From Anderseniella sp. (lineage in GTDB: Bacteria; Pseudomonadota; Alphaproteobacteria; Rhizobiales; Aestuariivirgaceae), in assembly GCA_028289645.1 (NCBI GenBank), contig JANQOK010000015.1:372001-436000 (forward strand): DNA of 64,000 bases, in the 5' to 3' direction. The position numbers and the translations under genes were made by a program. The notes beneath the pieces were generated by a model. The model was not told where the DNA came from and ran no database searches. It worked only from the letters and a program-made list of their open reading frames with translations. Of the stretch, positions 9,068-63,482 are shown piece by piece. Every line of letters starts with the position of its first letter. Positions within the stretch are counted from its first letter, which is position 1.

Positions 9068-9127
9068 ACAACCGACCTCCGGTACTAAATTCACTTTATT
9101 TGACATAGATCAAACAAGGGTCTTGCA

Positions 9128-9152
9128 AATTGGTCAAGTTAATTGTCCAATT
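9128..9152. promoter_or_regulatory. Palindromic operator candidate for the FadR-like regulator
   Basis: A near-perfect 25-bp inverted repeat with arms AATTGGTCAA and TTGTCCAATT (one mismatch) and a 5-bp centre lies in the divergent promoter region between the regulator (start 9067) and the TRAP operon (start 9305). FadR-subfamily regulators bind short AT-flanked palindromes containing GGT/ACC or GGTC cores. Binding here is inferred from symmetry and location, not shown. Confidence 0.55.
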
Positions 9153-9304
9153 GTTTCGACGCCACTGGTGTCGCCTACCGAAAGGCTGGCCTTGTGTTCG
9201 GGGCAGGCTGGATTTGAAAACTGGGAGTGCTCTTTGACTGGCGCCCGTCACTGAATGATCGGGCGAAGTGTGAAGTGTAAAACGTGCTAGGGAGGAATCT
9301 GCAC

Positions 9305-10345
9305 ATGAAGAAATTACTTACGGCAGCCGTTGTCGGCGCATCCATGGTTGCCATGTCGGCGGTCAGTACGATGGCTGAACCTGTCCGCCTCAAGATGGCG
9401 TCCACATATCCGTCAAGCCTGACGCAGCTCGGAACGCTCGGCAAGACTTTGGAAGCCAATATCAATTCCATGTCCGGCGGTGAAGTGCAGATCAAGTACT
9501 TCGAGCCCGGTGCACTGGTGCCGGCGCTGGAAGTGTTCGATGCCGTCAAGAACGGGTCGGTTGACGCGGCCTGGTCAACACCGGGCTACTGGCAGGGCAA
9601 GGAACCGTCACTGGCACTGTTCTCGGCCGTGCCGTTCGGACCCGATGCCCGTGAATATGGTGCCTGGCTGTTGCATGGCGACGGCGAGAAGCTGATGCAG
9701 AAGGTTTATGAAAAGCACAATATCCATTCCTTCATCTGCGGCGTCATCGCGCCTGAGGCATCCGGATGGTTCCGCGAGCCGCTCAAGTCCATTGACGACC
9801 TGAAGGGCAAGAAGATGCGCTTCTTCGGCCTCGGTGCCAAGGTGATGCAGAAGCTCGGCGTTGACACCCAGCTGCTGGGTGCTGCCGACATCTATCCGGC
9901 GCTGGAGCGGGGCACCATTGATGCCACCGAATTCTCCATGCCGGCGATTGACCTCAATCTCGGCTTCTACCAGATCGCCAAGCACTACTACTTCCCCGGA
10001 TGGCATCAGCAGTCCACGTCTTTTGAGCTGATGATCAACATGGACAAGTGGAAGTCCATGAGCGATCAGCAGAAGAAGATAATTGAAGTGGCATGCCGCG
10101 CCAACTATGCACTCGGCATGGCCGAAGGTGAGTACATTCAGGGCGCAGCTCTGGCCGAACTGAAGTCCAAGGGCGTCACGGTTCACAAATGGTCGGATGC
10201 CGATCTCGCCAAGCTCAAGGAAACCTGGGAAAGCCTCGTCGTGGAAATCGCCGCTGGTGATCCCGCGTTCAAGGAAGCCTGGGATAATCTGCAGAAGTTC
10301 CGCGCCGAATATGCAGACTGGAAAGACCTCGGCTACTTGAAGTAG
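9305..10345 (+). CDS. TRAP transporter substrate-binding protein (DctP family)
   Basis: 346 residues from ATG 9305, preceded by GGAGGA at 9291-9296. Residues 1-27 are a Sec signal peptide (KKLLTAAVVGASM...TMAEP), so the mature protein is periplasmic. The body has the DctP pattern: VRLKMASTYP, MSGGEVQIKYFEPGALV, LKGKKMRF, GAADIYPALERGTIDATEF. The Arg in KKMRF is the usual carboxylate anchor. It captures a carboxylate or related solute for the two membrane subunits that follow. The branch resembles the mannitol/chloroaromatic group, but the ligand is unknown. Confidence 0.92.
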   Translation: MKKLLTAAVVGASMVAMSAVSTMAEPVRLKMASTYPSSLTQLGTLGKTLEANINSMSGGEVQIKYFEPGALVPALEVFDAVKNGSVDAAWSTPGYWQGKEPSLALFSAVPFGPDAREYGAWLLHGDGEKLMQKVYEKHNIHSFICGVIAPEASGWFREPLKSIDDLKGKKMRFFGLGAKVMQKLGVDTQLLGAADIYPALERGTIDATEFSMPAIDLNLGFYQIAKHYYFPGWHQQSTSFELMINMDKWKSMSDQQKKIIEVACRANYALGMAEGEYIQGAALAELKSKGVTVHKWSDADLAKLKETWESLVVEIAAGDPAFKEAWDNLQKFRAEYADWKDLGYLK

Positions 10346-10371
10346 GCTGACTGAGGCTGACTGAGGCTGAC
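10345..10371 (+). repeat. 10-bp tandem repeat after dctP
   Basis: GGCTGACTGA is repeated 2.7 times directly after the dctP stop codon, in frame with nothing. It is a short slippage-type repeat with no known role. Confidence 0.7.
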
Positions 10372-10380
10372 AATCTGTTG

Positions 10381-10422
10381 CCGGTCCGGTGTTGCTCGCG
10401 TCATGCGAGCCCACCGGACCGG
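10381..10422 (+). terminator. Strong hairpin between dctP and dctQ (attenuator or mRNA-stability element)
   Basis: Perfect 11-bp arms CCGGTCCGGTG and CACCGGACCGG enclose a second 6-bp hairpin GCTCGC/GCGAGC. A loose T-rich stretch follows from about 10429. Such structures commonly lie after genes for abundant binding proteins and lower expression of the downstream permease genes. Confidence 0.65.
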
Positions 10423-10469
10423 TTGCGGTTTTCGATCGATGGGGTTGGTCGTCATAAAAGGGCAGGGCT

Positions 10470-11033
10470 GTGGGTGGACTTTTGAGAATAAGCGGCGGCA
10501 TAGACCGGACGCTGGAGTTCTTTACAAAAATTGGAATGTGGTGCGGTTTGGCGCTGGTTGTCGTGGTTTGCTACGATGTGCTGTCGCGCTATTTCGGTGT
10601 GCCGAAACCGTTTGGCCTCAACTCCACAATGGTGCAGGAGTTCGAGTACTGGCTGCACACGTTCCTGTTCGCGCTGGTGATCGGCTATACCTACACCAGG
10701 CAGGGTCACGTCCGTATTGATCTGATCAGGGACAAGCTGCCCCTCAAGGCGAAATACGCCATTGAGATGTTCGGCTGCCTGTTCTTCCTGATTACCTATG
10801 CCGTCGTGGCCGGGATCTACTGCTACCAATATGCATTGGCCTCGTTCTACGAAGGCGAGGCGTCCAAGTCGGTGATCGGGCTGTCCCACATCTGGATCCT
10901 GAAATCCGCGCTGCCCATCCTGTTTTTGCTGCTCGGCCTTGCCGGCATTTCGCAACTCATCAAGTCCACAGCCGGTTTCCTCGGCAAGCTGCCGGAAGAC
11001 AAGATAGCCGAGACCGTTGGGGGAGACCTGTAG
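10470..11033 (+). CDS. TRAP transporter small permease (DctQ family)
   Basis: 187 residues with four predicted transmembrane helices (about 18-40, 60-80, 95-120, 145-170). It has the DctQ features: a conserved amphipathic start (RISGGIDRTLEFFTKIGMWCGLALV) and the cytoplasmic loop after TM2 (YTYTRQGHVRIDLI). It pairs with the large permease to form the Na+-coupled transporter in the inner membrane. It lies between the binding protein and the large permease, 2 bp from the latter. Confidence 0.88.
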   Translation: MGGLLRISGGIDRTLEFFTKIGMWCGLALVVVVCYDVLSRYFGVPKPFGLNSTMVQEFEYWLHTFLFALVIGYTYTRQGHVRIDLIRDKLPLKAKYAIEMFGCLFFLITYAVVAGIYCYQYALASFYEGEASKSVIGLSHIWILKSALPILFLLLGLAGISQLIKSTAGFLGKLPEDKIAETVGGDL

Positions 11034-24749: not shown

Positions 24750-25598
24750 ATGCTGTGCAGGATAGGTGACGTCGAGGTCTGGCGCATTCTGGAGATAAAC
24801 GGGCCGTTCCGGACCCCGGAAGAGCTGTTTCCAACCGCCGGGCCGGAGGCGCGCGAAACCATCGAGGCGCACGTGCCCGACCAGTTGTGCGCGGCGACCG
24901 GGCGGCTGATCCTGCCCATACAGGGGTTTCTGCTGAAAACGCGATCGCACGTCGTCCTGGTCGACAGTTGTGTCGGCAACGACAAGACCAACCCCAACAC
25001 GCCGGACTGGAACCAGCGCGCCGATGGCCGCTTCATGGCGGCGCTGGCTGCGGCCGGCATCGGCCCGGCGGATGTCGACTATGTGCTGTGCACTCACCTG
25101 CACGCCGACCATGTCGGCTGGAACACCCGGCTTGAGGACGGGCGCTGGGTGCCCACATTCCCCAATGCGCGCTACCTGATGCCGGCGGCGGACGAGGAGT
25201 TCTATCGCGATGCCGGCGGCAACGCCTATGCCGAAAGCGTGCTGCCGGTGATCGAGGCCGGGCAGACCGAGCTGGTCAGCGCCGGTCACATGCTCGGCGA
25301 GCACATCACCTTGCTGCCGACGCCCGGCCACACCCCGGGCCATGTCTCGGTGCTGGTGAAGAGCGGTGCTGCCGAGGCGATCATCACCGGTGATGCCCTG
25401 CACACATCGGCCCAGTGCTGGCGGCCGGACTGGCACTTCGTCTATGACAGCGACCCGGAGCAGGCCGCCGTCTCGCGCCGGCGCCTGCTGGAAGACGCCA
25501 CCGAAGCCGACCGCAAAGTGCTCGGCACCCATTTCGCCCTGCCGTCCATCGGCCGGGTGAAGGTGCACGGCGATGCCTTCAGGTGGGTGGATGATTGA
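24750..25598 (+). CDS. MBL-fold metallohydrolase
   Basis: 282 residues from ATG 24750. The metallo-beta-lactamase zinc motif is THLHADHVGW near residue 117, with further ligands in LLPTPGHTPGHVS (His), ITGDALH (Asp) and GTHFALPS (His). It has the long N-terminal extension typical of the lactonase-like (AttM/N-acyl homoserine lactonase-related) and quinate-type groups. No signal peptide is visible. Substrate unknown. It lies 13 bp after the Tat-type gene and overlaps the GMC oxidoreductase gene, consistent with a catabolic unit. Confidence 0.85.
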   Translation: MLCRIGDVEVWRILEINGPFRTPEELFPTAGPEARETIEAHVPDQLCAATGRLILPIQGFLLKTRSHVVLVDSCVGNDKTNPNTPDWNQRADGRFMAALAAAGIGPADVDYVLCTHLHADHVGWNTRLEDGRWVPTFPNARYLMPAADEEFYRDAGGNAYAESVLPVIEAGQTELVSAGHMLGEHITLLPTPGHTPGHVSVLVKSGAAEAIITGDALHTSAQCWRPDWHFVYDSDPEQAAVSRRRLLEDATEADRKVLGTHFALPSIGRVKVHGDAFRWVDD

Positions 25599-27201
25599 AT
25601 TCGACTTTGTCATTGTCGGCGCCGGCTCGGCCGGGTGTGTGCTCGCGTCGCGGCTGGTCGAGGACGCCAAGCTGACGGTCTGCCTGCTCGAGGCCGGCCC
25701 GCCCGACCGGCATCCGATGATCCATGTCCCGGTCGGCTGGATGAAGCTGATGAAGAACGCGAGCTACAACTGGATGTACGAGGCGGAAAGCTCGCCGTGG
25801 ACCGGCGGCCGCCGCATTCCGGTGCCCCGCGGCAAGACGCTGGGCGGCTCGTCGTCGATCAATGGCAATGTCTTCAACCGCGGCGCGCCGTCGGATTTCG
25901 ACCACTGGGCCCAGCGCGGCAATCCCGGCTGGAGCTATGCGGATGTGCTGCCGCTGTTTCGCCGCATGGAAAGCTGGCTCGGGCCGGACAGTGATGGGAA
26001 ACGCGGGCGAAGCGGCAAGCTGAGGGTCACCCCCAGCCCCTGGTCGCATCCGCTGTGCGAGGCGTTTCTCGACGGCGCGGCAAGCCTCGGCATTCCGCGC
26101 AACCCGGACTACAACGCCGGCCAGCAGTTCGGCGCCGCCTATTCCCAGCGCACCATTGCAAACGGCCGCCGGCAGAGTGCCGCGCAGGCGTTTCTGCGGC
26201 CCGCTCTGAAGCGCCGGAACCTGTCGGTCGTCACCCATGCCCACGTCACCGAAATCCTGTTCGACGGCCGGGCCGCCACCGGGGTCCGTTACCGGCGCAA
26301 GGGACGCATGGAGGAAATCCACGCCCGCCGCGAGGTCATCCTGTGCGGCGGCGTCATCAATTCCCCGCAATTGCTGCAGCTTGCAGGTATCGGCGATCCG
26401 GCCCATCTGGCCGAGATCGGTGTCCCGGTGCGCCACGCCGCCCCCGGCGTCGGCGCCAACCTGCGCGATCACTATACGCCGCGCTTTACCGCCCGGGTGC
26501 AGGGCATCGACACGTTCAACCAGAAGGCGCGCGGGCTGGCCTTCGGGGCTGAGGTTGCGAAATGGCTCATCGGACAGCCGTCCATTCTGAGCCTGCCGTC
26601 GACGGCGTGCTATGCCTTTGCCAAGTCCGATCCCGTCCTCGACGACAGCGACCTGCAGATCACCTTCATGCCGGCCAGCTATAAGGAGGGCCATCAGAGC
26701 CAGCTGGACGACGAGCCGGGCATGACGCTGGCCGCCTGGCAGCAGCGGCCCGAGAGTGTCGGCTCGGTCCGGGCGCGCTCGTCAGACCCGTTCCAGGCGC
26801 CCGAGATCAGGCCCAACTATCTAAGTGCCGAGGTCGACCGCAAGGTGCTGCTGGCCGGGCTGCGCCTGGCCCGCCGGCTGATGCGCACCGACGCCATGGC
26901 GCCGTACTTCGCCGGCGAACTGTATCCGGGAGACGGCGTCCAGACGGACGAGGAACTTCTCGACACCGCCCGTGAGCGCGGCACGACAACGTTCCACATG
27001 ATCGGCACCTGCCGCATGGGGCCTGAGCACGATGCCAGTGCCGTCGTGGATCATGAACTGCGAGTCCGGGGCATCGAGCGCCTGCGCGTCGCCGACGCCT
27101 CGATCATGCCGACCATGCCCGCCGCCAACACCAACGCAGCTGCGTTGATGATAGGGGAGAAGGCGGCGGATTTGGTCAGGGCTGAGTTTGGCGAGAGGTG
27201 A
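25591..27201 (+). CDS. GMC-family FAD-dependent oxidoreductase (choline/alcohol dehydrogenase-like)
   Basis: 536 residues from ATG 25591, overlapping the MBL gene by 8 bp. The N-terminal FAD site is FVIVGAGSAGCVLASRL; the GMC signature RGKTLGGSSSINGNVFNRG follows near residues 80-98. The second signature is GGVINSPQLLQLAGIG. The catalytic His lies in FHMIGTCRMG, and the C-terminal block is PAANTNAAALMIGEKAADL. It oxidises a primary alcohol to an aldehyde (or further) with FAD; choline dehydrogenase is one relative, but the real alcohol is unknown. Confidence 0.9.
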   Translation: MIEFDFVIVGAGSAGCVLASRLVEDAKLTVCLLEAGPPDRHPMIHVPVGWMKLMKNASYNWMYEAESSPWTGGRRIPVPRGKTLGGSSSINGNVFNRGAPSDFDHWAQRGNPGWSYADVLPLFRRMESWLGPDSDGKRGRSGKLRVTPSPWSHPLCEAFLDGAASLGIPRNPDYNAGQQFGAAYSQRTIANGRRQSAAQAFLRPALKRRNLSVVTHAHVTEILFDGRAATGVRYRRKGRMEEIHARREVILCGGVINSPQLLQLAGIGDPAHLAEIGVPVRHAAPGVGANLRDHYTPRFTARVQGIDTFNQKARGLAFGAEVAKWLIGQPSILSLPSTACYAFAKSDPVLDDSDLQITFMPASYKEGHQSQLDDEPGMTLAAWQQRPESVGSVRARSSDPFQAPEIRPNYLSAEVDRKVLLAGLRLARRLMRTDAMAPYFAGELYPGDGVQTDEELLDTARERGTTTFHMIGTCRMGPEHDASAVVDHELRVRGIERLRVADASIMPTMPAANTNAAALMIGEKAADLVRAEFGER

Positions 27202-27312
27202 CGGGCTGTCTCGGGCCACAGCTCACTGGCGGTTCATAGCAGCCGTTGGTCCGTTGCGAAAATCTAATCGGTAATTAGCGCGTTTAGTAAACTGTCGCTG
27301 AAATTCGTAACT

Positions 27313-27531
27313 CTGGAGTTCCTGCGGTTCCTGACCGCACAGGAGGGGGCGAACGCCGGGGATGTTGAGGCGGTGGGGAGTTTGCGTGCGGCGCAGTGGG
27401 ACTTTATTGAGCGGCTGGTGTTGCCGCTAGTGGAGGCGGTGGTCGGGAAGCTCGAAACGGACGAAGCGCGGAATCGGGCGCTGCCGCGGGCAGTGTGTAG
27501 GGGGTATCTGGAGGATGAACTTGCGGTGTAA
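27313..27531 (+). pseudogene. 3' fragment of a second TorD-like chaperone gene
   Basis: Translated from 27313 the frame reads LEFLRFLTAQEGANAGD... through ...LVLPLVEAVVGKLETDE and ends at TAA 27529-27531, 73 codons with no internal stop. By hand alignment it is about two thirds identical to residues 100-173 of the chaperone encoded at 22293-22814, but the first ~99 residues are missing and no start codon is placed sensibly. The 27202-27312 stretch before it has no coding sense. It marks the junction with the AT-rich island. Confidence 0.85.
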
Positions 27532-27857
27532 AATATGAACTTTCGGTGTCGAGGAATAAGGGTATGAATTAGTTGCTTTGTTAGGGTCTGGTCCGATCCA
27601 TTGATTAAGAATGCTCATACTGCAGGCAAATGTCTTAGAGAGGGACGAGTGACTTCCATATTCGCGCAAACAGCATAGTCAATATGATCGTACTTTTGGT
27701 CCGATCTGCAATCTGCCGAGGATTTCTCTAACGGGGATGCAGCCAGCAAGTTGAGCGTTTCAGCTAAGGTTGCAATCCGCTGTTGAGTGTCATCTACGAG
27801 AGCAGTAGTGTGCCCCAAAGTATTTCGTTACCCAGTCAGAGAAAAGTTGAAATACAA
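27532..27857. other. AT-rich intergenic leader of the defence operon
   Basis: About 325 bp with no convincing gene. Base composition drops here from GC-rich to AT-rich. A TTG-initiated extension of hsdM to 27783 exists but has no RBS or homology. No clear sigma-70 promoter, integrase or tRNA end was found. The hsdM promoter must lie here by position. Confidence 0.6.
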
Positions 27858-29279
27858 ATGGAACCAACCAATGTTGTCCAAAAGATCTGGAATCTTTGTA
27901 ACATTTTGCGTGGCGATGGAATTACCTATTATCAATATGTATCGGAATTATCGTATCTATTGTTCTTGAAGATCGCACAGGAGAACGGATCTGAGGAATT
28001 GCTCCCCGAAGGCTATCGTTGGGCTGACTTGGTAGAACATGATGAAGATGGCCTACTGGGTTTCTATCAGGAAATGCTTACTCATTTAGGAGCGGTGGCG
28101 GAAAACCAAGTAGTAAAGGCAATCTACGCATTTCCGACCACCGTTTTTTCCCATTCTGAGAACCTTAAGGCGGTGATTAATGGCATTGCCAAGATCGAAT
28201 GGCATGAAGTGGGAAAAGACAGATTCGGCGACGTATACAGCGGCTTGATTGCTAAGAGTATGGACGCTCGGTCCGGTGCAGGGCAATACTTCACGCCCAG
28301 CGCACTAGTCGGAACTATTGTGGAACTTGTACGGCCAGAGCTAGGCGAGGTGATCCAAGATCCCGCCGCGGGTAGTGGCGGTTTTTTGGTTGCCGCGGAC
28401 AATTTCGTCCGAAAAATGGAGTCTGGACGAAAATATGAAAAAAATGCACCCAGCTACCAAGGAATGGAAATCGAGAAAAGCACGCGTCGAATTTGCCTCA
28501 TGAACACGTTTTTGCATGGTTTAGATGCAGAGATATTTCTTGGGGATGCGCTGACTGAAGACGCTGCAGGTCTTGTTCCAGCGGACGTAATTTTAGCCAA
28601 TCCGCCATTTGGATCCAAAGCCGGAAGCCATCGCGCCCTGCGTACTGATATACCTTACCCAAGCACAAACAAGCAGTTGGCCTTTCTCCAGCATGTTTTT
28701 CTGGGGTTGAAAGAAGGTGGCCGAGCTGCAGTGGTAGTCCCTGACAACGTGCTATTTGAGGATGGGATAGGCAAAGCAGTTCGACAAGAACTCATGAAGG
28801 TATGTAACCTCCACACGGTTTTGCGACTTCCAAACGGAATATTTCAAGGTGCAGGCGTAAAAACCAATGTACTATTCTTCAATAAACTCAAAAAGAATTT
28901 GAACGGAACGGAAGCCACGTGGTTCTATGATTTACGCACCAACATGCCGTCCTTCGGTAAGACAAACGCGCTGACTGCCCATCAATTCGAAGAATTCAAA
29001 AGCCTCTACGGTCCCGATTCCCTAGGTAGTACGGAACGGCGAGAAGAGGGTGAAGAACGTCGTTGGCGATGTTTGACCCGCGATCAGATCGCTAAACGAA
29101 ATGAGAACCTCGATTGGATCTGGCTCCGCGATGAAACCGGCGATCCGAAAGACGACTTGGCCGAGCCGGATGAGATTGCCGTCGCGATCATGGGGCATTT
29201 GCGTGCAGCGCTCGATGAGATTGAGGCGTTGAGCGAAGACATAGAATACAACGCGAAACAGCGTGAGGTTGTCGAATGA
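27858..29279 (+). CDS. hsdM: Type I restriction-modification methyltransferase subunit
   Basis: 473 residues from ATG 27858. The N-terminal HsdM helical domain (VVQKIWNLCNILRGDGITYYQYV) is followed by the SAM site DPAAGSGGFLVAA near residue 168. The N6-adenine methylase motif NPPFGS lies near residue 247, and DNVLFEDGIGKAVR follows. It methylates adenine in a bipartite site chosen by HsdS. It starts a run of four overlapping plus-strand genes (hsdM, hsdS, ATPase, HNH) with markedly lower GC than both flanks, indicating horizontal acquisition. No hsdR is present beside it. Confidence 0.94.
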   Translation: MEPTNVVQKIWNLCNILRGDGITYYQYVSELSYLLFLKIAQENGSEELLPEGYRWADLVEHDEDGLLGFYQEMLTHLGAVAENQVVKAIYAFPTTVFSHSENLKAVINGIAKIEWHEVGKDRFGDVYSGLIAKSMDARSGAGQYFTPSALVGTIVELVRPELGEVIQDPAAGSGGFLVAADNFVRKMESGRKYEKNAPSYQGMEIEKSTRRICLMNTFLHGLDAEIFLGDALTEDAAGLVPADVILANPPFGSKAGSHRALRTDIPYPSTNKQLAFLQHVFLGLKEGGRAAVVVPDNVLFEDGIGKAVRQELMKVCNLHTVLRLPNGIFQGAGVKTNVLFFNKLKKNLNGTEATWFYDLRTNMPSFGKTNALTAHQFEEFKSLYGPDSLGSTERREEGEERRWRCLTRDQIAKRNENLDWIWLRDETGDPKDDLAEPDEIAVAIMGHLRAALDEIEALSEDIEYNAKQREVVE

Positions 29280-30811
29280 ATAGTGCCATTCCGTCAAATT
29301 GGACCAATGCAGCAATCGGCGAGCTTTGCGGTCTAATTAACGGGCGCGCATTCAAACCGACCGAATGGACAGAAAACGGCCTTCCAATCGTACGCATTCA
29401 AAATCTTAACGATCCGAAAAAGCCTTTTAATAGGTACAACGGGGAAGTAAGCGAGCGGTTTCTGATCAATAAGGGCGATTTACTTTTCGCTTGGTCCGGA
29501 ACACCAGGTACATCGTTCGGCGCTCACATTTGGAATGGTGGAAAGTCAGTGTTGAATCAGCACATTTTTAAAGTCGAATTCAATCAAGAATTTCTGGATC
29601 GAGATTTTTTCCGACTCGCCATCAATCAAAAACTTAGTGAACTGACTGCCAAAGCACATGGGGGCGTGGGTTTGCGTCATGTCACTAAAGGGAATTTTGA
29701 AAAAACTCGAATTATACTTCCACCAGTGGCCGAGCAACGGCGGATTGTTTGGAAAATTGAAACACTAAACGTTCGCGTCACTACCGCCCGCGCACACCTC
29801 GCAGTCATCGAGGGGTTAATAGAGCGATATCGCCAGTCGGTCATTGATACTGCTTTCGCGTCGTTGGAGCTTTCGAATCCGCTGTTCGAACTAGTGGATC
29901 AGGATATCGGCATTCCGTACGGAATAGTGCAGACAGGTGAGCATAAAGCGGAGGGCATCCCCACTGTTCGAGCTGGCGACATCAAAGGCTTTAAGTTACT
30001 GGAAGGTCAACTGAAGCGTGTTGACCCCGAAGTAGCGTCGCAGTACTCGCGGACCCGATTGAAAGGTGGCGAAGTTCTGATCACCATTCGTGGATCCGTT
30101 GGGGAAACATGCATTGTTCCTTCTTCAATGGAAGGAAACAACATCAGCAGAGAGGTGGCCTTGATACCTGTTGCTCATGGAATCAGTGCAGCATTCATTA
30201 TGTATTTTTTGAAGTCGAACCAAGCTGCGGAGTATATCAAAAAGAATACTAAAGGTGTGGCGCAAACGGGCATAAATTTGCGTGATTTGAAGAGGCTGCC
30301 CTCGCCCAGTATTGACGAAGAGGATCAACGCGAAATCGTCTGCAGCATCGAAGCCGCCTTGACCAAAATGAGCCGTCTTGAGGCCGAGGTACAAAATTCA
30401 TTGAAAATGATCGACCGGCTGGATGAACGAATTCTAGCTGAAGCGTTTGCAGGTAAACTCGTCCCTCAAGATCCAGATGACGAACCAGGCGGAGCGCTCC
30501 TGCAACGCATCCGACATGAACGAGCTTCTCGATCGCTTGAAAAGAGGCGTTCGACTGTTCGCCGACGTGCAGAGCGACAAACGAAAAAAAAGGCGATTGA
30601 TATGAGTAGTAAGAAGCGTGTGGATGTAGCTGAGAATCATCTCAGCGAACTGCTTAACGAGCTTGGAGGGTCGCTGGAAGCACGAGATCTGTGGATCAAG
30701 AGTGAGATGGAGCTTAATGAGTTCTACAAGCTCCTTCGAGACGAAGTGGCATCAGGACGGATCAAGGAGGCTAGCGACAAGGAGAAGCTGGTAATTGGAA
30801 ATGCGGCTTGA
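29276..30811 (+). CDS. hsdS: Type I restriction-modification specificity subunit with C-terminal extension
   Basis: 511 residues, ATGA-coupled to hsdM. The two target-recognition domains lie at about 1-165 and 205-350. The central conserved helix is at about 150-200 (EQRRIVWKIETL...IERYRQSVID) and the distal one at about 345-405 (DQREIVCSIEAALTKM...ILAEAFAGKLVPQ). The usual C-terminal end (ALLQRIRHERA) is reached near residue 422. A further ~90 residues follow: a basic linker (KRRSTVRRRAERQTKKK) and a helical module with SLEARDLWIKSEMELNEFY. The extension directly precedes the ATPase gene and could be a docking module; that is inference. Confidence 0.93.
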   Translation: MNSAIPSNWTNAAIGELCGLINGRAFKPTEWTENGLPIVRIQNLNDPKKPFNRYNGEVSERFLINKGDLLFAWSGTPGTSFGAHIWNGGKSVLNQHIFKVEFNQEFLDRDFFRLAINQKLSELTAKAHGGVGLRHVTKGNFEKTRIILPPVAEQRRIVWKIETLNVRVTTARAHLAVIEGLIERYRQSVIDTAFASLELSNPLFELVDQDIGIPYGIVQTGEHKAEGIPTVRAGDIKGFKLLEGQLKRVDPEVASQYSRTRLKGGEVLITIRGSVGETCIVPSSMEGNNISREVALIPVAHGISAAFIMYFLKSNQAAEYIKKNTKGVAQTGINLRDLKRLPSPSIDEEDQREIVCSIEAALTKMSRLEAEVQNSLKMIDRLDERILAEAFAGKLVPQDPDDEPGGALLQRIRHERASRSLEKRRSTVRRRAERQTKKKAIDMSSKKRVDVAENHLSELLNELGGSLEARDLWIKSEMELNEFYKLLRDEVASGRIKEASDKEKLVIGNAA

Positions 30812-32378
30812 TTGGCTAGAGATTGAGAAATTCAAAAATTTGGAAAATTTCAAGATCGATTTCGATCAGGGAGAACTCTCAACTGTACTCATCGGTGAGA
30901 ACGGCACTGGGAAATCCAACGTGATCGAGGCGTTGGTTACAATTTTTCGCGATCTTGACCTCCAAAACCGCACAGATTTTGCCTACGCTATTTCCTACCA
31001 TTGCCACGGTCGGTGTGTTGAGATTGATGCCGGTCTATCAACAAACGGGTTCACGGTAAAGGTCGATAAAAAGACTATATCGCGCACTGATTTTAACAAA
31101 AGGAGTGCTGAATACTTACCGGACAACGTTTTCGGTTATTACTCCGGTGCGAGCCGTCGACTAGAGCAGCTTTTTGATCCACATCAGACTCGCTATTATC
31201 GTCGTGTGATTTCTCCAGACTCTGAAAAAGATGATATTGAACAAATTGACTTACGTCGCCTTTTTTATTGTAGATCTACATACGGTCAACTCGCTCTACT
31301 TACATACTTCTCGCAAGGTTCAGACTCTGCAAGAGCATTCCTTAAACAACAAATGCGTATCACGGGTTTCGACAGTGCCTTGCTAGTGCTTCGCAAGCCT
31401 CGCTGGGCTGGATCGAAGCCAACAAAGAACCAACTAGAAAATGGAGATCCAAGATTTTGGCATGCGGCTGGATTGGTTCGTTCCTTGTTGGGACAACTGT
31501 GGAAACACTCTCTCGCACCGATCAATTACAAGAGCCGCGAACATGAAGACTACCGTACCAAATCTGCCACTGAGGATCAGATCTACATATTCATTCGCGA
31601 CGAACAAGCTCTAAGAGATATTGCGAGCCATTTCGGCAGCGAAAAAACATTTTTTGCACTACTGGAGACATTGGACATATCCGACTTGATTCGAGAGGTA
31701 CGCATCTGGGTAAAACGCGAAAATGCAGATGGAGAAATTCCATTTCACGAAATCAGCGACGGTGAAAAACAGCTCCTTAGCGTACTTGGTTTGATGCGGT
31801 TCACAGGCCGTGATGAGAGCTTGTTTCTTTTGGACGAGCCCGATACTCATCTGAACCCAGCATGGAAATGGGACTATTTGCCACTGGTGCGTGAGGTCGT
31901 CCAAGGGAATCGCGAAAGTCACATAATAATGACAAGTCATGATCCGCTGACAATGGGTGGCTTAAAGGCCTCACAAGTGCTGGTGATGTATCGGGGCAAC
32001 AATGAAAGATTGATTGCGAGCCCACCAGAAGTTGAGCCACGCGGGCTTGGCTTCACAAGCATACTTACGCAAATTTTCGGATTACCAACCACCGTGGACC
32101 CTGAAACACAACGGAAGCTGGATGATCGGAACGCGCTTCTTCAGATAGATCAACGGACAGAAAAACAGCAGAAAAAGCTTGTTGAGCTTTCGAGCGAGCT
32201 CAAGCGGCTAGGCTTCATGATCGAAGACCGCGAGCCTGAATACGCACTATTCCTTCGCGCTCTGGAAAGTTTGAAAGACGAGAAACGCGCGACCTTCACG
32301 CCAGATGAAATTTTGGCCAAGAATGAAGCCGCCAAACGTCTCCTAAAGGAGATTATGACGGGCGAAGGGTCTGAATAA
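30801..32378 (+). CDS. ABC/SMC-type AAA ATPase (PtuA-like), defence-associated
   Basis: 525 residues from ATG 30801 (TTG 30795 also possible); overlaps hsdS by 11 bp. Walker A is GENGTGKS at residues 32-39. The ABC signature-like ISDGEKQLLSVLGL lies near 318, Walker B SLFLLDEPDTHLNPAW near 342, and the H-loop TSHDPLTMGG near 377. A charged coiled-coil tail follows (about 440-500: QRTEKQQKKLVELSSELKRLG). The head resembles RecF/OLD/PtuA ATPases that sense or clamp DNA and control a partner nuclease. Followed by an HNH gene with a TAATG overlap, it is most like the Septu ATPase. Confidence 0.88.
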   Translation: MRLDWLEIEKFKNLENFKIDFDQGELSTVLIGENGTGKSNVIEALVTIFRDLDLQNRTDFAYAISYHCHGRCVEIDAGLSTNGFTVKVDKKTISRTDFNKRSAEYLPDNVFGYYSGASRRLEQLFDPHQTRYYRRVISPDSEKDDIEQIDLRRLFYCRSTYGQLALLTYFSQGSDSARAFLKQQMRITGFDSALLVLRKPRWAGSKPTKNQLENGDPRFWHAAGLVRSLLGQLWKHSLAPINYKSREHEDYRTKSATEDQIYIFIRDEQALRDIASHFGSEKTFFALLETLDISDLIREVRIWVKRENADGEIPFHEISDGEKQLLSVLGLMRFTGRDESLFLLDEPDTHLNPAWKWDYLPLVREVVQGNRESHIIMTSHDPLTMGGLKASQVLVMYRGNNERLIASPPEVEPRGLGFTSILTQIFGLPTTVDPETQRKLDDRNALLQIDQRTEKQQKKLVELSSELKRLGFMIEDREPEYALFLRALESLKDEKRATFTPDEILAKNEAAKRLLKEIMTGEGSE

Positions 32379-33226
32379 TGATCTATATCTTTCAAGATCA
32401 GACGAAGATACCTGCCGCTTGGCTTAAGAAGGTTGCTGCGCTTCAAGCTGAATTGGAACACTTACCAGATGTAGATGCTCGCAAGGCGTTCATTGACAGG
32501 CATTCTGTCGTCTGGGGCGAGATCAAGAATCAACTCCTAGAAATGTCCGCTGGTAAATGCTGGTACTCCGAAGCGCCAGATGCGGTGTCCGATTGGCACG
32601 TTGATCACTTTCGGCCAAAAAAGCGCGCCCTGGACGCGGATCGGACAGAGCACGAAGGCTATTATTGGTTAGCATTCGACTGGAAAAATTACCGCATCGC
32701 TGGCAGCTACCCCAACTCGCCGCATCGCGATGAAACGGGAGTTACTCGGGGAAAATGGGACTATTTCCCCTTGGCTGATGGCTGTGGCCGAGCGTCTTGG
32801 AACAATCGCGATTGTTCCGGCGAAGTATGCCTTCTCCTTGATCCGACGAATCCTGAAGATCCTAAGCTTCTTACCTTCGATGAGACTGGGCTACCGAGAC
32901 CTTCCGCCCCCCAAGTGGGTGTTGTCAAAAAAAGGGTAGCGGCTACCGTGCATTTTCTGAATCTTGATCATCAACGTCTTGTGCGGGCTCGGAAACAAAA
33001 GTGGCGCGAAACATCTGACTGGATAGAAGAGCTGCTCAAGGCTAGCCCTCCTGACCCGGATGCTTGTACCCCGCAAGATCACGAAAGGTTCACGAGAGTG
33101 AATAGAAAGTTGTCAGAACTTACCGCGCCATCGTCACCTTATGCAGCCACTGCCAGAGCATGTCTTGAAGCGCATGGGTTGTCTGCTTTTGTGAATCGAC
33201 CGGAGGAAATCAACGCGGCGGCATAG
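32378..33226 (+). CDS. HNH endonuclease (PtuB-like), defence-associated
   Basis: 282 residues, start overlapping the ATPase stop (TAATG). The HNH core is SDWHVDHFRPKKR (His74, His77) followed by YYWLAFDWKNYR with Asn104, the pattern seen in PtuB/TIGR02646-type nucleases. Relatives usually hold a zinc with CxYC and a later CxxC; here they read CWYS and AGSYPN, so the structural zinc appears lost. It probably cleaves DNA or RNA under control of the ATPase. It is the last gene of the island operon; no following hsdR exists. Confidence 0.85.
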   Translation: MIYIFQDQTKIPAAWLKKVAALQAELEHLPDVDARKAFIDRHSVVWGEIKNQLLEMSAGKCWYSEAPDAVSDWHVDHFRPKKRALDADRTEHEGYYWLAFDWKNYRIAGSYPNSPHRDETGVTRGKWDYFPLADGCGRASWNNRDCSGEVCLLLDPTNPEDPKLLTFDETGLPRPSAPQVGVVKKRVAATVHFLNLDHQRLVRARKQKWRETSDWIEELLKASPPDPDACTPQDHERFTRVNRKLSELTAPSSPYAATARACLEAHGLSAFVNRPEEINAAA

Positions 33227-33662
33227 GACATCGTATGAGGTTTGTGGCGAGGTCTTGTGACAATTTGGCTAGTCGCCAGGAAACGATAATCTTTCCCTAA
33301 ACCCCGAGTACCGCTCGAAAGAAGCAGTTTGTTGTCCTGGTTCCTAGGACCTGGTGCTCTCAATCTGGGTGGTATTTCTTTCGTTACGCTCCAGCAGCCA
33401 CGCCTAAAACAAAAACCACCGCAATGTGATGAATCACACATTCACCGGCTTGTTTCCGGCCTATGGTCCTCATCAACAACAAGGTGACAAACAAATAGCT
33501 GGTTCCCCCGACACCCCCTGCCAAACCACCGGACAACCAGTAATAAAAAGACGACCCGTCACCAGGACCTGAGCAACGTACGTACCCAAGGTCTGACGCG
33601 CCCGATCTTCCGGTCCCCTCCCTGCCGGAAATCGGGCGCAACGCTTTTCAGCGGCCGAAACG
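33227..33662. other. Right edge of the defence island, no gene seen
   Basis: About 436 bp between the HNH gene and soxG. Composition changes back to GC-rich near 33590. Short minus-strand reading frames here (33384-33641, 33139-33441) lack ribosome sites or family resemblance. A strong hairpin occupies 33598-33639. No integrase or direct repeat matching the left edge was found by eye. Confidence 0.6.
33598..33639. terminator. Long hairpin at island/sox junction
   Basis: Arms GCGCCCGAT and ATCGGGCGC pair perfectly, extended inward by TTCCGG/CCGGAA around a 11-nt loop. On the plus strand a short T-run (CTTTT) follows 6 nt later, so it may end plus-strand transcription from the island. For the minus-strand sox operon no T-run is seen. 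Confidence 0.5.
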
Positions 33663-34265
33663 TCAGCGGATCTCGTAGCCCCACTCCAGCGCCAGTTCGC
33701 ACACGCCCAGCCAGAAGCCCTCGGCGAAGCTGCGCAGCACGCTGAGTTCGAAACTGTTCTCAGCCGTACAGGCGATCAGCACGCCGACATGGCCGATCTG
33801 GGTGGCGGCGCACATGCCCGGTGTGAACTTGTCCGGCCTGAGGTCGACCGCCGTCCCCTTGCCGAGCACGTCGCGCGCCCGCGCGCCTGCCATGCGCATC
33901 ACCGTGCGCCCGTGCGACTGGTCGCTCACCATCGCCATCGCGCCGAGCTTCTTCTCAAGCTTCTGCGCCAGGCTGCCGGCGGCGGCATCCGGGGCCACGG
34001 CCAGCCATTGCTCAGGCCCGTTGCCGTGCAGGCTCATACCGCGCGCGCTGGCCGAGGCGCCCATGCCGGGCAGGTCGAGGCCGAAGTCCTTCTTCATCGC
34101 GGCCGTGAGCGCCCGCGCCTTGCCCTTGGCCGCGATCACCGTCACCACCTCGCAAGGATGCACCAGCGACAGCGCCACGCCGGGGCCTTCCGGCAGCGAG
34201 CGGCCGAAGCGGCCCGGCACGATCATGTCATCCAGCGCGGAAATCTGTGTCAGCATGTCAGCCAT
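33663..34265 (-). CDS. soxG: Sarcosine oxidase gamma subunit
   Basis: 200 residues from ATG 34265 (MADMLTQISALDD), overlapping soxA by 8 bp; longer in-frame extensions run through soxA and are not used. The subunit has a GcvT-like fold: DLPGMGASASARGMSLHGNGPEQWLAVAP, VVDQSHGRTV-type block (VSDQSHGRTVMRMAG), and LPxxCAATQIGHV (FTPGMCAATQIGHVGVLI). It contacts the FMN region of the heterotetramer that demethylates sarcosine to glycine, H2O2 and 5,10-methylene-THF. It is the last gene of soxBDAG. Confidence 0.9.
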   Translation of the reverse strand: MADMLTQISALDDMIVPGRFGRSLPEGPGVALSLVHPCEVVTVIAAKGKARALTAAMKKDFGLDLPGMGASASARGMSLHGNGPEQWLAVAPDAAAGSLAQKLEKKLGAMAMVSDQSHGRTVMRMAGARARDVLGKGTAVDLRPDKFTPGMCAATQIGHVGVLIACTAENSFELSVLRSFAEGFWLGVCELALEWGYEIR

Positions 34266-37212
34266 GGGCCTTCTCCTGTGCCGGATCAAAGAACACCGGA
34301 TCGCAGACCTCCGCCTGCATCTGAACATCGCGCAGGCCGTCCCACAGCACGATTTTCTCGCCGTGCCGGTCGCGGCCGCGCTTCAGCATGGCCAGCCCGA
34401 CCCAGCTCTCCAGCATCGGCGAATAGGCGACAGACGACACATAGCCCTGGTCGGTCTTAAGACTCGCCTTGTCGCCCGGATTGACCAGGTGGCAGCCGGC
34501 CCTAAAGCGCCAGTCGGGATTGACCGGCCTGACGCCGACAAGCTGCTCCCGGTCGGGATCGTTCAATCCCTCGCGCTCGCTCATCATGCGCCCGATATAG
34601 TCTTTCTTCTTCGACAGCATGCGCCCCATGCCGACGTCGCCCGCCGTCACCCGGCCGTTGATCTCGTTGTGGGTGACAAAGCCCTTCTCGATGCGCATGG
34701 CCGACAGCGCTTCAAGCCCGTACGGCCCGATGCCGTAGGGCTCGCCCGCATGCATGATGGCGTTGGCCACCGCCTCGCCGTAGCCCGCCGGCACCGCCAG
34801 CTCATAGGCCAGCTCGCCGGAGAACGAGATCCGGAACAGCATGCCGGGTACCGAACCCATGACCTTGACCTGGCGCGCCGCCAGGAAGGGGAACGCCTCG
34901 TTGGACAGGTCGGCGTCGACGATCTTGCCGAGCACGTCGCGCGAGCTAGGCCCGGCAATGGCCATCTGCGCCCACTGGTCGGTGACCGAGGCATACTGCA
35001 CGTCGAGCTCCGGCCACAGCGCCTGGTGGGCAAACTCGATGTCGCGCATGGTAGCCGCTGCATGCCCGGTGGTGGTGGTCATGAAGTAGTGGGTGTCCGA
35101 CAACCGGCTGGTGGTGCCGTCATCGCCGACAAAGCCGTCCTCGCGCAGCATCAGGCCATAGCGCGCCTTGCCCACCGGCAGCTTGGCGAAGGCGTTGCAA
35201 TACAGCCGGTTGATGAACTCGGTGGCATCGGAACCCTTGATGTCGATCTTGCCCAGCGTCGACACGTCGCAAAGCCCGACATGGGCGCGGGTGTTGAGCA
35301 CTTCGCGGGTCATCGCCGCCAGCCAGTCGTCGCCTTCCTCCGGGAACCAGCTTGAGCGGTACCACAGCCCGGTCTCGACGAACTCCGCGCCCAGATCCGC
35401 GGCCCAGTTGTGCAGCGGCGACATGCGCACCGGGGAGAAATGCTCATTGACGTGCTGGCCGCCGAGCGCCCCGAACGACACCGGCGTGTAGAACGGCCGG
35501 AACGTGGTGGTGCCGATCTCGTGCATGTCGCGGCCCGTGGCGTCGGCCAGGATGCCGATGGCGTTGACATTGCCGAGCTTGCCCTGGTCGGTGGCCATGC
35601 CGGAGGTGGTGTAGCGCTTGGCCAGCTCGATATGGTCATAGCCCTCGCGTGCCGCCAGCGGCAGGTCCTTGGCGGTGACGTCGTTCTGGTAGTCGACGAA
35701 CGGCTTGCCGGTCGACTGTTTCACCCACCACACCGGCGCCGAGGTATGCGAGGCATCGTCCATGCCCTTCGGCACAGCCGTCTTCGTGGTCTTAAAACCG
35801 GCCAGCTTCGCTGCCTGTTCACCGCGCGCTGCGCCGTCGGCCAGGCACTTGCTCAGCTGCCAGACCGCGTTGGCGGAGCCTGCCGCGATGATCGCCGGGT
35901 TGTCCTGCGGCGGCATAAAGCAATATTCATCCTCGTCCCACGACGGGCGCGCGCCCTGGTGGCAGGCCAGATGCACCACCGGGCTCCAGCCGCCGGACAT
36001 GGCCAGCGACTGGCACGGAATGGTCTCGTGGCCGCGGCCGCGGTCGATCTCTATGGCCTTCATGCCGTGCTTGCCGCCGTCGACATTGGTGACCACGGCG
36101 CCGGTCAGCACCGGCACGCCCTGGGTCTCGATGTCGGGCGCGTCGGCGCGGGCATCGATGATGGCTTCTACGTGAAGCCCGTGTGCTTTCATGTCGCGCG
36201 CCGTGCGGTAGCCGGAATCCGACGCGGTGAACACGCAGGCAGACCGCCCCGGGGCGACGGCATACTGGTTGGCATAGGCGCGCATGGCCGAGGCGGTCAT
36301 CACGCCGGGCCGGTCGTTGCCGCCGAACACGATCGGGCGCTCCTCGGCTCCGGTCGCCATCACACAAGCCTTGGCCACGATGCGCCACAGCTTTTCCACC
36401 GGCACGTCATGGTCGGGCAGGGCGACGTGCTTCTGCACCCGCTCCAGCGCCCCGAACACGCCCTGGTCATAGGCGCCGATCACCGTGGTGCGCGCCATGA
36501 TGGTGACGTTTGCCATGGCGGCCAGCTCGCCCAGTGTTGCAGCCGCCCACTCATGGCCTTCCTGCCCGGCAATCTCCTCGCGCTCCCTTAACAGCGACCC
36601 GCCACAGGCTGCATGCTCGTCGGCCAGGATGACGCTGGCGCCGCTGCGTGCCGCCGCCAGCGCGGCCATCAGCCCGGTCGGGCCGGAGCCGACCACCAGC
36701 ACGTCGCAATGGGCATAGGCCTTTTCATAGCGGTCCGGATCGTCCTCGTGGCTCAGGTGCCCGAGCCCGGCGGCGCGCCGGATGATCGGCTCGTAGATGG
36801 CTTCCCAGAACCGTTTCGGCCACATGAAGGTCTTGTAGTAGAACCCGGCCACGAACAATGACGAGGCGATGGAGTTGATGGCGCCGAAATCGCGCTCCAG
36901 CGTCGGCCAGCGGTTCTGGCTCTTTGCCACCAGCCCGTCATAGAGCTCCTGCATGGTAGCGCGCGTATTGGGCTCAAGGCGGCCGCCTTCGCCGATCTCC
37001 ATCAGCGCGTTCGGCTCCGCTGCGCCGGCGGTGATCACCGAGCGCGGCCGGTGGTATTTGAACGACCGGCCCATCAGCAACTGGCCATTGGCCAACAGCG
37101 CCGAGGCCAGCGTGTCGCCGTGATGGCCGTGCAGAGTTTTGCCGTCAAAGCTGAACTCGATCACCGAGCTGCGGTCGATCAGGCCGCCTGTGTCAAACCG
37201 GAACGAGGTCAT
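34258..37212 (-). CDS. soxA: Sarcosine oxidase alpha subunit
   Basis: 984 residues. The N-terminal part has a ferredoxin-like segment with the SoxA blocks SFKYHRPRSVITAGAAEPNALM. An NAD-binding Rossmann site CDVLVVGSGPTGLMAALAAA lies near residue 168. The C-terminal half (about 600-984) is a GcvT/aminomethyltransferase-like domain for tetrahydrofolate (HVGLCDVSTLGKIDIKG, ELAYELAVPAGYGEAV, GPYGLEALSAMRIEKGF). It binds NAD+ and THF and channels methylene from sarcosine to folate. It overlaps soxD by 4 bp and soxG by 8 bp. Confidence 0.96.
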   Translation of the reverse strand: MTSFRFDTGGLIDRSSVIEFSFDGKTLHGHHGDTLASALLANGQLLMGRSFKYHRPRSVITAGAAEPNALMEIGEGGRLEPNTRATMQELYDGLVAKSQNRWPTLERDFGAINSIASSLFVAGFYYKTFMWPKRFWEAIYEPIIRRAAGLGHLSHEDDPDRYEKAYAHCDVLVVGSGPTGLMAALAAARSGASVILADEHAACGGSLLREREEIAGQEGHEWAAATLGELAAMANVTIMARTTVIGAYDQGVFGALERVQKHVALPDHDVPVEKLWRIVAKACVMATGAEERPIVFGGNDRPGVMTASAMRAYANQYAVAPGRSACVFTASDSGYRTARDMKAHGLHVEAIIDARADAPDIETQGVPVLTGAVVTNVDGGKHGMKAIEIDRGRGHETIPCQSLAMSGGWSPVVHLACHQGARPSWDEDEYCFMPPQDNPAIIAAGSANAVWQLSKCLADGAARGEQAAKLAGFKTTKTAVPKGMDDASHTSAPVWWVKQSTGKPFVDYQNDVTAKDLPLAAREGYDHIELAKRYTTSGMATDQGKLGNVNAIGILADATGRDMHEIGTTTFRPFYTPVSFGALGGQHVNEHFSPVRMSPLHNWAADLGAEFVETGLWYRSSWFPEEGDDWLAAMTREVLNTRAHVGLCDVSTLGKIDIKGSDATEFINRLYCNAFAKLPVGKARYGLMLREDGFVGDDGTTSRLSDTHYFMTTTTGHAAATMRDIEFAHQALWPELDVQYASVTDQWAQMAIAGPSSRDVLGKIVDADLSNEAFPFLAARQVKVMGSVPGMLFRISFSGELAYELAVPAGYGEAVANAIMHAGEPYGIGPYGLEALSAMRIEKGFVTHNEINGRVTAGDVGMGRMLSKKKDYIGRMMSEREGLNDPDREQLVGVRPVNPDWRFRAGCHLVNPGDKASLKTDQGYVSSVAYSPMLESWVGLAMLKRGRDRHGEKIVLWDGLRDVQMQAEVCDPVFFDPAQEKAHG

Positions 37213-37568
37213 GTCTTTGCTCCTCGTACTGCTTTTCTTGCAGGCGTTTTACGCGCCGTAGTCTTGCGGCCTGTCGTTTTTCTAGCCGGGGTCGAAGACC
37301 CCTTCCACTTGCTTGCCGGTGTTACCGCGTAGATCTCATGGCTCACCGTGTCGCGCTCGACAACCAGCCATTGCCGGCAGCCGCCGGTGTGGTGCCAGTG
37401 TTCGGCCATGCGCCCGCGCACGTTTTCGCGGATGTGCACATAGTCGTGCCAGGTGTCCAGTGTGCCGTCACCGATGGTCTCCGGACGCTGCTTGGAGGCA
37501 TCGCCCTTGATGTAGAACTCGTCCGAGGGGCGCGGGCCGCAAAAAGGACAGTTGATCAGGTAAGCCAT
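37209..37568 (-). CDS. soxD: Sarcosine oxidase delta subunit with basic C-terminal tail
   Basis: 119 residues. The core (1-90) has the zinc site of SoxD: Cys7 and Cys10 in INCPFCGPR, then HWHHTGGCRQW with His and Cys64. Residues 91-119 form a tail rich in Lys/Arg/Thr/Ala with TxARK-like repeats (TPARKTTGRKTTARKTPARK), resembling a histone H1-type tail. Delta subunits are usually near 90-100 residues, so the tail is extra. It lies 12 bp after soxB and is coupled to soxA. Confidence 0.93.
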   Translation of the reverse strand: MAYLINCPFCGPRPSDEFYIKGDASKQRPETIGDGTLDTWHDYVHIRENVRGRMAEHWHHTGGCRQWLVVERDTVSHEIYAVTPASKWKGSSTPARKTTGRKTTARKTPARKAVRGAKT

Positions 37569-37580
37569 GGTCGTGTCCCC

Positions 37581-38831
37581 TTAATGCAGGTTTGCCTGCG
37601 CGCCGTGCGCGGTTTCGTCCATCACGTAGCCGGTGCGGAACCGGTCCAGCCGCATGGCCGAATTGAGCTCGTGCGGCGCGTCGTTGGCGATGGTGTGGGC
37701 AAAACACCAGCCCGATGCCGGTGTCGCCTTGAAACCGCCATAGCACCAGCCGGCATTGAGGTAGAGATTGTCGATATCAGTCTTGTCGATGATCGGCGAG
37801 CCATCCATGGACATGTCCATGATGCCGCCCCACGAGCGCAGCACCCGGGCCCGCGACAAAGATGGGATCATCGCCAGCCCGCATTCGACCACGTGCTCCA
37901 CCGTCGGCAGGTTGCCGCGCTGGGCATAGGAGTTGTAGCCGTCGATATCGCCGCCGAACACCAGGCCGCCCTTGTCCGACTGGGAAATGTAGAAGTGCCC
38001 GACCCCGAAGGTGACCACATTGTCGAGCCACGGCTTGATGCCTTCCGACACGAACGCCTGCAGCACGTGACTCTCAATCGGCAGCTCCAGCCCGGCCATT
38101 TTCGCCACGGTGGTCGAGTTGCCGGCCGCTGCCAGGCCGAGTTTCTTGCAGCCGATGAAGCCCTTGCTGGTCTCGACGCCGACGACGCGACCCTTTTCGC
38201 GTTTGATGCCGGTGACCTCGCAGTGCTGGATCACGTCGACGCCGCGCATATCGGCGCCGCGGGCAAAGCCCCAGGCCACCGCGTCATGGCGCACCGTGCC
38301 GCCGCGCCTTTGCATCAGCCCGCCCATGATCGGGAAGCGGCCATTGTCGAAATTCAGGAACGGCAGCATGTCGCGCAATGAGTGCTGGTCGATGATTTCC
38401 GCGTCGACGCCGTGAATGCGCATGGCGTTGCCGCGCCGCACATAGGCGTCGCGCTGGCCGTCGGAGTGGAAAAGGTTGATGACACCGCGCTGCGACACCA
38501 TGGCGTTGAAGTTGAAATCCTGCTCCAGGCCTTCCCACAATTGCAGCGATTTCTCGTAGAACGGGTTGTTGCCGGGCAGCAGGTAGTTGGAGCGGATGAT
38601 GGTGGTGTTGCGGCCGATATTGCCGCTGCCCAGGTAGCCCTTCTCCAGCACCGCGACATTGGTGATGCCGTGCAGCTTGGCCAGGTAATAGGCCGTGGCC
38701 AGCCCGTGGCCGCCGCCGCCGACAATGATCACGTCGTATTCCGGCTTCGGATCCGGCGAGCGCCAGGCCGGTTGCCAGTTCTTGTGGCCGGACAGCGCAT
38801 TGCGGGCCAGGGAGAAAATCGAGTACTTCAT
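37581..38831 (-). CDS. soxB: Sarcosine oxidase beta subunit
   Basis: 416 residues from ATG 38831 (MKYSIFSLARNALSGH), the normal family length; an upstream in-frame start at 38861 is not needed. The FAD site is YDVIIVGGGGHGLATAYYLAK (GxGxxG near residues 38-43). The GTVRHDAVAWG block near residue 182 carries the His that binds FMN covalently in characterised enzymes. It oxidises the N-methyl group of sarcosine. It is first in soxBDAG and faces the divergent AraC-type regulator across 105 bp. Confidence 0.96.
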   Translation of the reverse strand: MKYSIFSLARNALSGHKNWQPAWRSPDPKPEYDVIIVGGGGHGLATAYYLAKLHGITNVAVLEKGYLGSGNIGRNTTIIRSNYLLPGNNPFYEKSLQLWEGLEQDFNFNAMVSQRGVINLFHSDGQRDAYVRRGNAMRIHGVDAEIIDQHSLRDMLPFLNFDNGRFPIMGGLMQRRGGTVRHDAVAWGFARGADMRGVDVIQHCEVTGIKREKGRVVGVETSKGFIGCKKLGLAAAGNSTTVAKMAGLELPIESHVLQAFVSEGIKPWLDNVVTFGVGHFYISQSDKGGLVFGGDIDGYNSYAQRGNLPTVEHVVECGLAMIPSLSRARVLRSWGGIMDMSMDGSPIIDKTDIDNLYLNAGWCYGGFKATPASGWCFAHTIANDAPHELNSAMRLDRFRTGYVMDETAHGAQANLH

Positions 38832-38936
38832 GACGGGCATCCGTTTCAGAGACCGGGGCAAAACCGGGCGAAAGTATAGGTGCCGGATGCGGAATATCTG
38901 TTGTCTCTACGGGCCGTTTACTTTACTCATAGCGAC

Positions 38937-63087: not shown

Positions 63088-63114
63088 GTGGGTTGTGATG
63101 GAATTTTTGGCTAG

Positions 63115-63326
63115 CGCTTGCACGACCTTCGACATAGTTTTGCCGGCGTTGCAGATGCTGGCGGAGCAAACTTTACGACAATTGGTGCGCTTTTTGTAAC
63201 ACCAATAGTTCGACTACGCGACGCTATTCACATCGCAATGATGATCTTCTAAGAGCTGCAACTGAATCGATTGACAATAAGGTTAGCGCTGCAATGACTG
63301 ATGATCAGTTGAAAGTCGAAGCTTAG
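63115..63326 (+). pseudogene. Tyrosine integrase C-terminal remnant with frameshift
   Basis: From 63115 the frame reads RLHDLRHSFAGVADAGG and on to IGALF, the HxLRH box of tyrosine recombinases with the catalytic Arg and His. After a length change near 63190-63200 the +1 frame continues NTNSSTTRRYSHRNDDLLRA and ends with a stop at 63324-63326. That part fits the GH-T-x3-T-x-RYxH box with catalytic Tyr (the GH is damaged). An in-frame TAG precedes 63115, so the 5' part is gone. Confidence 0.75.
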
Positions 63327-63482
63327 GGCCAAAAAATTATTTGGGCTCATCATATCGTTTGGCATGAAGAACAAGAATATTCGAAACATGAATCTGTAAC
63401 AAATGTTCTCTGAGTAATTCACAGCTCACAAATCGAAGCTGTTTTTGCTACTTTGGCAGCCAAACCTTCGGAGGAAGAGAGA
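63327..63482. other. AT-rich gap after integrase remnant
   Basis: About 155 bp of low-GC sequence with no gene seen. It ends in GGAGGAAG (63470-63477), the ribosome site for the next gene. Confidence 0.6.

Follow-up and report, generated by a model that had tools for sequence, protein, structure and literature searches.

Does a type I methylase lying directly beside a Septu-type nuclease pair form a single defence system with it, and can such a pair stand in for HsdR, the subunit that type I systems need to cut? The question is raised by a four-gene operon in Anderseniella sp. (Alphaproteobacteria), located in a stretch of 64,000 nucleotides (contig JANQOK010000015.1 of assembly GCA_028289645.1, positions 372,001 to 436,000), hereafter the window. 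The operon encodes, in order, the type I adenine methyltransferase HsdM, the specificity subunit HsdS, a PtuA-like ATPase and a PtuB-like HNH nuclease. The initial annotation, made from the sequence alone, proposed that HsdMS marks self and the ATPase-HNH pair replaces HsdR, an interpretation that the present analysis partly supports. Coupling of the methylase and ATPase-HNH halves is well supported by comparative sequence evidence, and the chances are about even that in this operon a type I methylase uses its HsdS to dock a Septu-type effector, the ATPase-HNH pair, with methylation-gated cutting in place of HsdR.

The four reading frames are free of internal stops, retain their family motifs and all lie on the + strand, with successive overlaps of 4 bp (hsdM/hsdS), 11 bp (hsdS/ATPase) and 1 bp (ATPase/HNH), as first annotated. 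The hsdM gene (27858..29279; the ATG at 27858 is favoured over a TTG at 27783, from the homologue in locus L025) encodes the S-adenosylmethionine (SAM) motif DPAAGSGGF and the catalytic motif NPPF, and is the sole N6_Mtase match in the whole genome. The hsdS gene (29276..30811) encodes two target-recognition domains and an extra C-terminal domain; the last ~63 residues of HsdS (30620..30808, about residues 449-511) form a winged helix by structure prediction, the proposed docking domain for the ATPase. The gene for the PtuA-like ABC-type ATPase (30801..32378) starts at an ATG within the open reading frame (ORF) 30795-32378, and its product has Walker A, signature, Walker B and H-loop motifs at ORF residues 34, 321, 345 and 382, with PtuA chains among its solved-structure matches. 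The PtuB-like nuclease (32378..33226) matches a solved PtuB structure weakly (E 8e-6) and contains the HNH-type motifs KCWYSE, VDHFRPK and WKNYR and a later N, conserved in its relatives. The locus thus carries the type I features of an HsdM with SAM and NPPF motifs and an HsdS with two recognition domains, though not the HsdR motor-nuclease, and the Septu feature of a PtuA-like ATPase adjoining a PtuB-like HNH protein.

This ATPase clade is present in 14 loci, comprising the window, five plasmids (L023-L027), five viral contigs (L044, L045, L047, L048, L049) and three genomes (L062-L064). Writing R, M and S for the hsd genes, A for the ATPase and B for the HNH nuclease, the gene order is M-S-A-B in nine loci (two with R first) and S-A-B-M in five (two with R first); the order S-A-B is unbroken in 14/14, hsdS always lying directly upstream of the pair, and the position of M varies. 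Because hsdM and hsdS adjoin the ATPase gene in all 14 clade loci, the arrangement is, on the evidence of gene order, judged to be more than chance. Whether the pair usually occurs alone had been set down as a check on the coupling; no close relative of the ATPase without hsdMS was found among the loci opened, which included 10 of the 37 ATPase-matched plasmid records. A scan of genome contigs with P0003 yielded one distant locus, L022, without hsdM or hsdS by profile, and phage records gave one match only, at 24%. Of the 24 HsdM proteins placed in a tree, the 13 that are linked to the pair do not form one clade, well-supported branches forcing at least 4 changes, so the cassette has either moved between methylases or been lost repeatedly.

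The count of 14 leaves out L046 (figures same as L045), L103-L104 (contigs of L045-L046), L105, L106 and, as more distant, L022, L030-L032, L050-L060 and L065-L070. Also left out are the decayed L028 (Vibrio anguillarum plasmid p15), in which many separate frames are what is left of an R-M-S-ATPase-HNH array and tnpB genes of the IS66 family lie close by, and L029 (Rhizobium etli plasmid; 25% identity), a PtuB-like fusion without hsd genes. The latter, a 761-residue AAA ATPase that includes a PtuB-like region and is encoded close to ABC-three-component genes, represents a different Septu-like architecture. In L063 (G375, 9058-10805) the ATPase gene is in two frames, from either a real frameshift or an assembly error.

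Further evidence that joins the two halves comes from the HsdS tail. The conserved regions of the L023 and L027 HsdS match EcoKI HsdS as far as the EcoKI C-terminus, and EcoKI HsdS is without a winged-helix tail; similar C-terminal tails are present on HsdS in 14/14 loci, the weakest in L027. Across the 14 loci, tail distances correlate with ATPase distances at r=0.83 (Mantel; partial 0.80 given HsdS core or HsdM), and with those of HsdM and the HsdS core at r=0.42 and r=0.51, respectively. The 60 residues preceding the tail follow HsdM (r=0.70); with the ATPase they correlate at 0.42, or 0.19 once HsdM is controlled for, and these values fall to 0.23 and 0.00 when two near-copies are removed. 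This change of correlation at the domain boundary argues for the tail and the ATPase as a unit, contact between them not being proven by it. Individual pairs of loci show the same pattern in both directions. L027 and L026 are 83% identical in HsdM and 81% in the pre-tail stretch, but 17% in the tail, 44% in the ATPase and 28% in the HNH protein; L064 and L047 are 40% identical in HsdM and 31% in the pre-tail stretch, but 59%, 66% and 64% in tail, ATPase and HNH, respectively. In the viral contigs L045 and L047, HsdM (85%), HsdS tail (90%) and ATPase (65%) are similar and the HNH protein is only 30% identical, and here the nuclease itself appears to have been swapped within the cassette.

A profile built from 13 pair-linked HsdS tails, which may miss diverged tails, was run on 398 genomes and matched 26 at E<=0.01, four of them below 1e-10. 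The four strong matches are the three carrier genomes in this set, which match by construction since their tails helped build the profile, and G372. Four of the 22 genomes with weak matches were opened: two (L077, L084) look like IHF/HU proteins matched at their N-terminal helices, presumably by chance, one (G426) is an outer-membrane efflux protein, and one (G169) has no hsd gene by hsd profiles. In plasmids, searches with single tail sequences gave no match.

The initial annotation reported no hsdR in the island or within 20 kb on either side; in this assembly, which is 98.7% complete, HsdR was found neither in the island nor elsewhere by the SWI2_SNF2 family PF18766, a profile of 11 HsdR proteins, or HSDR_N (PF04313). 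Three further carriers, G109, G375 and G517, came from scans of partly overlapping sets of 398, 387 and 239 genomes. In G109 and G375 neither the profile nor HSDR_N finds an HsdR, and PF18766 gives no match above cut-off, one sub-threshold PF18766 match in G109 not being counted; a 604-residue frame with a helicase-region match in G108 was likewise not counted, and G517 retains only a 157-residue N-terminal fragment. As controls, 80 genomes with hsdS and without an ATPase-profile match were taken from the 203 of 398 that have hsdS. The HsdR profile gave 38 strong matches (E below 1e-60), 9 weak and 33 none; in our judgement this profile is without an EcoR124-type member, and negatives were hence retested with PF18766, which was positive in 19 of the first 20. 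The 13 negatives without this retest and the 9 weak matches make up 22 undecided controls, and 57 of the 58 decided controls have HsdR. HsdR is thus missing genome-wide in 4/4 carriers vs 1/58 decided controls (Fisher p=9e-6); treating every one of the 22 undecided controls as HsdR-less gives p=0.009. For plasmid and viral carriers the search covered the records and not their hosts: none of the four plasmids and two viral contigs that lack an adjacent HsdR has one elsewhere on its record, and these viral contigs may be incomplete.

Gene order, motifs, the predicted winged-helix tail, tail-ATPase co-variation and HsdR absence in carrier genomes were computed; physical docking, methylation gating and the substrate cut are what we infer, as follows. 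The four-gene operon would form one composite defence machine, in which methylation of a bipartite DNA site, bound by HsdM2S, would mark self. The winged helix at the HsdS C-terminus would dock the PtuA-like ATPase, which would carry and restrain the PtuB-like HNH nuclease. Unmethylated foreign sites, or another phage disturbance, would change the state of the ATPase and release the nuclease to cut nucleic acid. The ATPase-HNH pair would thereby fill the usual effector place of HsdR, and in some relatives act beside HsdR. In its more specific form the proposal is tentative and somewhat less probable than the docked-effector reading at large: HsdM2S, through the HsdS winged helix, would gate a Septu-type effector instead of a translocating HsdR, and a swapped tail-ATPase-HNH cassette would re-arm the same methylase with another effector, which would make the operon a separate architecture of sequence-programmed restriction.

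Several observations weigh against this docked, methylation-gated effector. HsdR adjoins 4 of the 14 loci (L027, L045, L047, L049), and its replacement is therefore not obligatory; of the initial claim of one system lacking HsdR, the single unit is supported, by the 14/14 association, the tail co-variation and the four HsdR-less carriers, and the absence of HsdR as its defining feature is not. HsdR loss, the frequency of which the initial annotation proposed to count, is common but not defining. The control genomes were hand-picked in list order, with some rows skipped, not drawn at random, and the carriers number four. A DNA-restriction output cannot be assumed, because tRNA is cut by some of the PtuAB pairs described in the literature and DNA by others, and the structure model of the HNH protein (mean predicted local distance difference test score, pLDDT, 57.7) is too poor for an active-site check. 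Tail identity is 7-33% in most pairs, the L027 tail being the most diverged, and the structure model covers the window tail alone. The tail and the ATPase are also neighbours, so that linkage after recombination in conserved hsdS could yield the same correlation. HsdS shows no tail by eye in L050, L066, L068 and L069, loci with an ATPase like the NCBIfam family TIGR04435. Finally, a locus in G372 (L099, 7680-14843) has the order R-M-YhcG-S and a tailed HsdS without ATPase or HNH, and an exclusive association of the tail with pair-linked HsdS is thereby ruled out. The YhcG-type nuclease gene of L099 may encode an alternative partner.

Among other explanations, the one that survives best, though we consider it unlikely, is a PrrC-like guard, in which HsdM2S holds a latent ATPase-HNH toxin via the tail until a phage anti-restriction protein, by binding or occluding the methylase, sets the toxin free. 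The output would be cell arrest, for example by cutting tRNA, and HsdR would be dispensable. Such a guard predicts tail-ATPase co-variation equally and fits loci with and without HsdR alike. It has a precedent in PrrC, a tRNA nuclease kept latent by the type I enzyme within whose operon its gene is embedded, and activated when T4 Stp inhibits that enzyme, according to two reviews (PMC12707154, PMC3874165). Two papers on PtuAB (PMC11555353, PMC13096335) describe loss or cleavage of tRNA-Tyr by the PtuAB of retron Eco7 and Septu EcB88, the latter requiring ATPase and HNH residues for defence, and cite DNA cutting by another Septu. However, the guard alone leaves unexplained why HsdR is missing in every carrier but in only one of the 58 decided controls; moreover, one published clone of the PrrC locus includes HsdR, and EcoprrI is termed a conventional type IC system.

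It is improbable that the tail extends HsdS for DNA binding or structure, with no connection to the ATPase, and co-varies with it through linkage only. Winged helices often bind DNA, the tail and ATPase genes are adjacent, and G372 has one tailed HsdS without the pair. However, the pre-tail stretch, which is almost as close to the ATPase gene, has the far lower correlation given above, and strong tail matches were limited to one (G372) of the 200 genomes that have hsdS but not the ATPase-HNH pair, although the profile was built from pair-linked HsdS. An orphan hsdMS methylase that merely neighbours an independent Septu pair in a defence island is similarly improbable: both are common defence genes, and PADLOC models match them separately (MTase_I, Specificity_I, PtuA PDLC00293 at 637 bits, PtuB PDLC00343 at 299 bits), but the 14/14 association with fixed S-A-B order, the overlapping frames, the tail-ATPase co-variation and the want of a close ATPase relative without hsdMS among the loci opened all speak against it.

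The modules of the proposed docked-effector system are already known, and NCBI names a sister clade of the ATPase 'restriction system-associated' (TIGR04435, restriction system-associated AAA family ATPase). There, too, the ATPase gene adjoins hsdS or lies close to it, in type I loci that may or may not have HsdR. The window ATPase scores 137 bits against this model and its relatives in L045, L062 and L023 score 132-156, below the cut-off of 300. Among 12 more distant loci (L030-L032, L050-L052, L065-L070), HsdR is nearby in seven (L031, L050, L052, L065, L066, L068, L069); L031 and L052, the only two of these scored, exceed the cut-off, and L032 is so annotated. Several HsdS of TIGR04435-like loci have a C-terminal extension, but its sequence is unlike the window tail and gives no match to the tail profile, and none of the partner proteins tested there scores more than weakly as HNH, in contrast to the PtuB-like partner in the window. 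A gene for 347-386 residues directly follows the TIGR04435-like ATPase gene in L031, L032, L052, L065, L066, L067 and L070.

Septu type I (PtuA-PtuB) shares with the window operon the ATPase and HNH pair, with conserved ATPase motifs and HNH-type residues, but the window ATPase clade was not found without hsdMS among the loci opened. With its clade seen only beside hsdMS in these loci, and resembling TIGR04435, the pair does not look as if a stand-alone Septu had recently joined hsdMS. Reported neighbours of Septu are a retron and the Hma operon, with no mention of hsdMS in the accessible text of the PADLOC paper (PMC8565338). Both NCBIfam retron Ec78 models score below cut-off (PtuA 64 bits of 500, PtuB 45 bits of 150). 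For retron type I-A (Septu type II), none of the four large island ORFs is a reverse transcriptase, and the interval 27200-33660 has no Rfam match, Rfam cover of retron RNAs being poor. EcoKI-type (type IA) systems have HsdM and HsdS in common with the window, which differs by the absence of HsdR, the extra HsdS tail and the ATPase-HNH pair. In EcoprrI-PrrC, too, a type I operon contains the gene of a nuclease, but HsdR lies beside only 4/14 of the present loci; unlike in PrrC, ATPase and nuclease are two proteins here, and the nuclease is of the HNH type. The methylation-associated defence system (MADS) likewise has HsdM-like, HsdS-like and ATPase genes, with detectable similarity to the MAD2, MAD5 and MAD3 models at scores far below cut-off (80 of 720, 58 of 400 and 28 of 420, respectively), but MADS comprises eight genes and the window operon four. 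Neither a winged-helix tail on HsdS nor an hsdMS-Septu operon without HsdR was the subject of any title or abstract listed from the open-licence literature.

The operon lies in the AT-rich block noted initially, with a GC content of 46-53% across the six kilobases 27001-33000 vs 55-69% in the other kilobases of the window, the last excepted (63001-64000, down to 47.5%, perhaps another acquired block). It is preceded by a GMC oxidoreductase gene (25573-27201) and followed by sarcosine oxidase genes (33663-38861). A promoter scan gave 1 site vs 5.4 expected, 14 terminator-like sites were found vs 7.6 expected (12 of them within genes), and short repeats around the island look like chance.

Annotation by family models sees here a Septu pair next to a type I system that is incomplete, which hides the coupling. 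If this coupling is real, a Septu-type effector would gain a sequence- and methylation-defined trigger, type I enzymes could switch effector yet keep their mark, and the short, swappable tail would offer a direct experimental handle.

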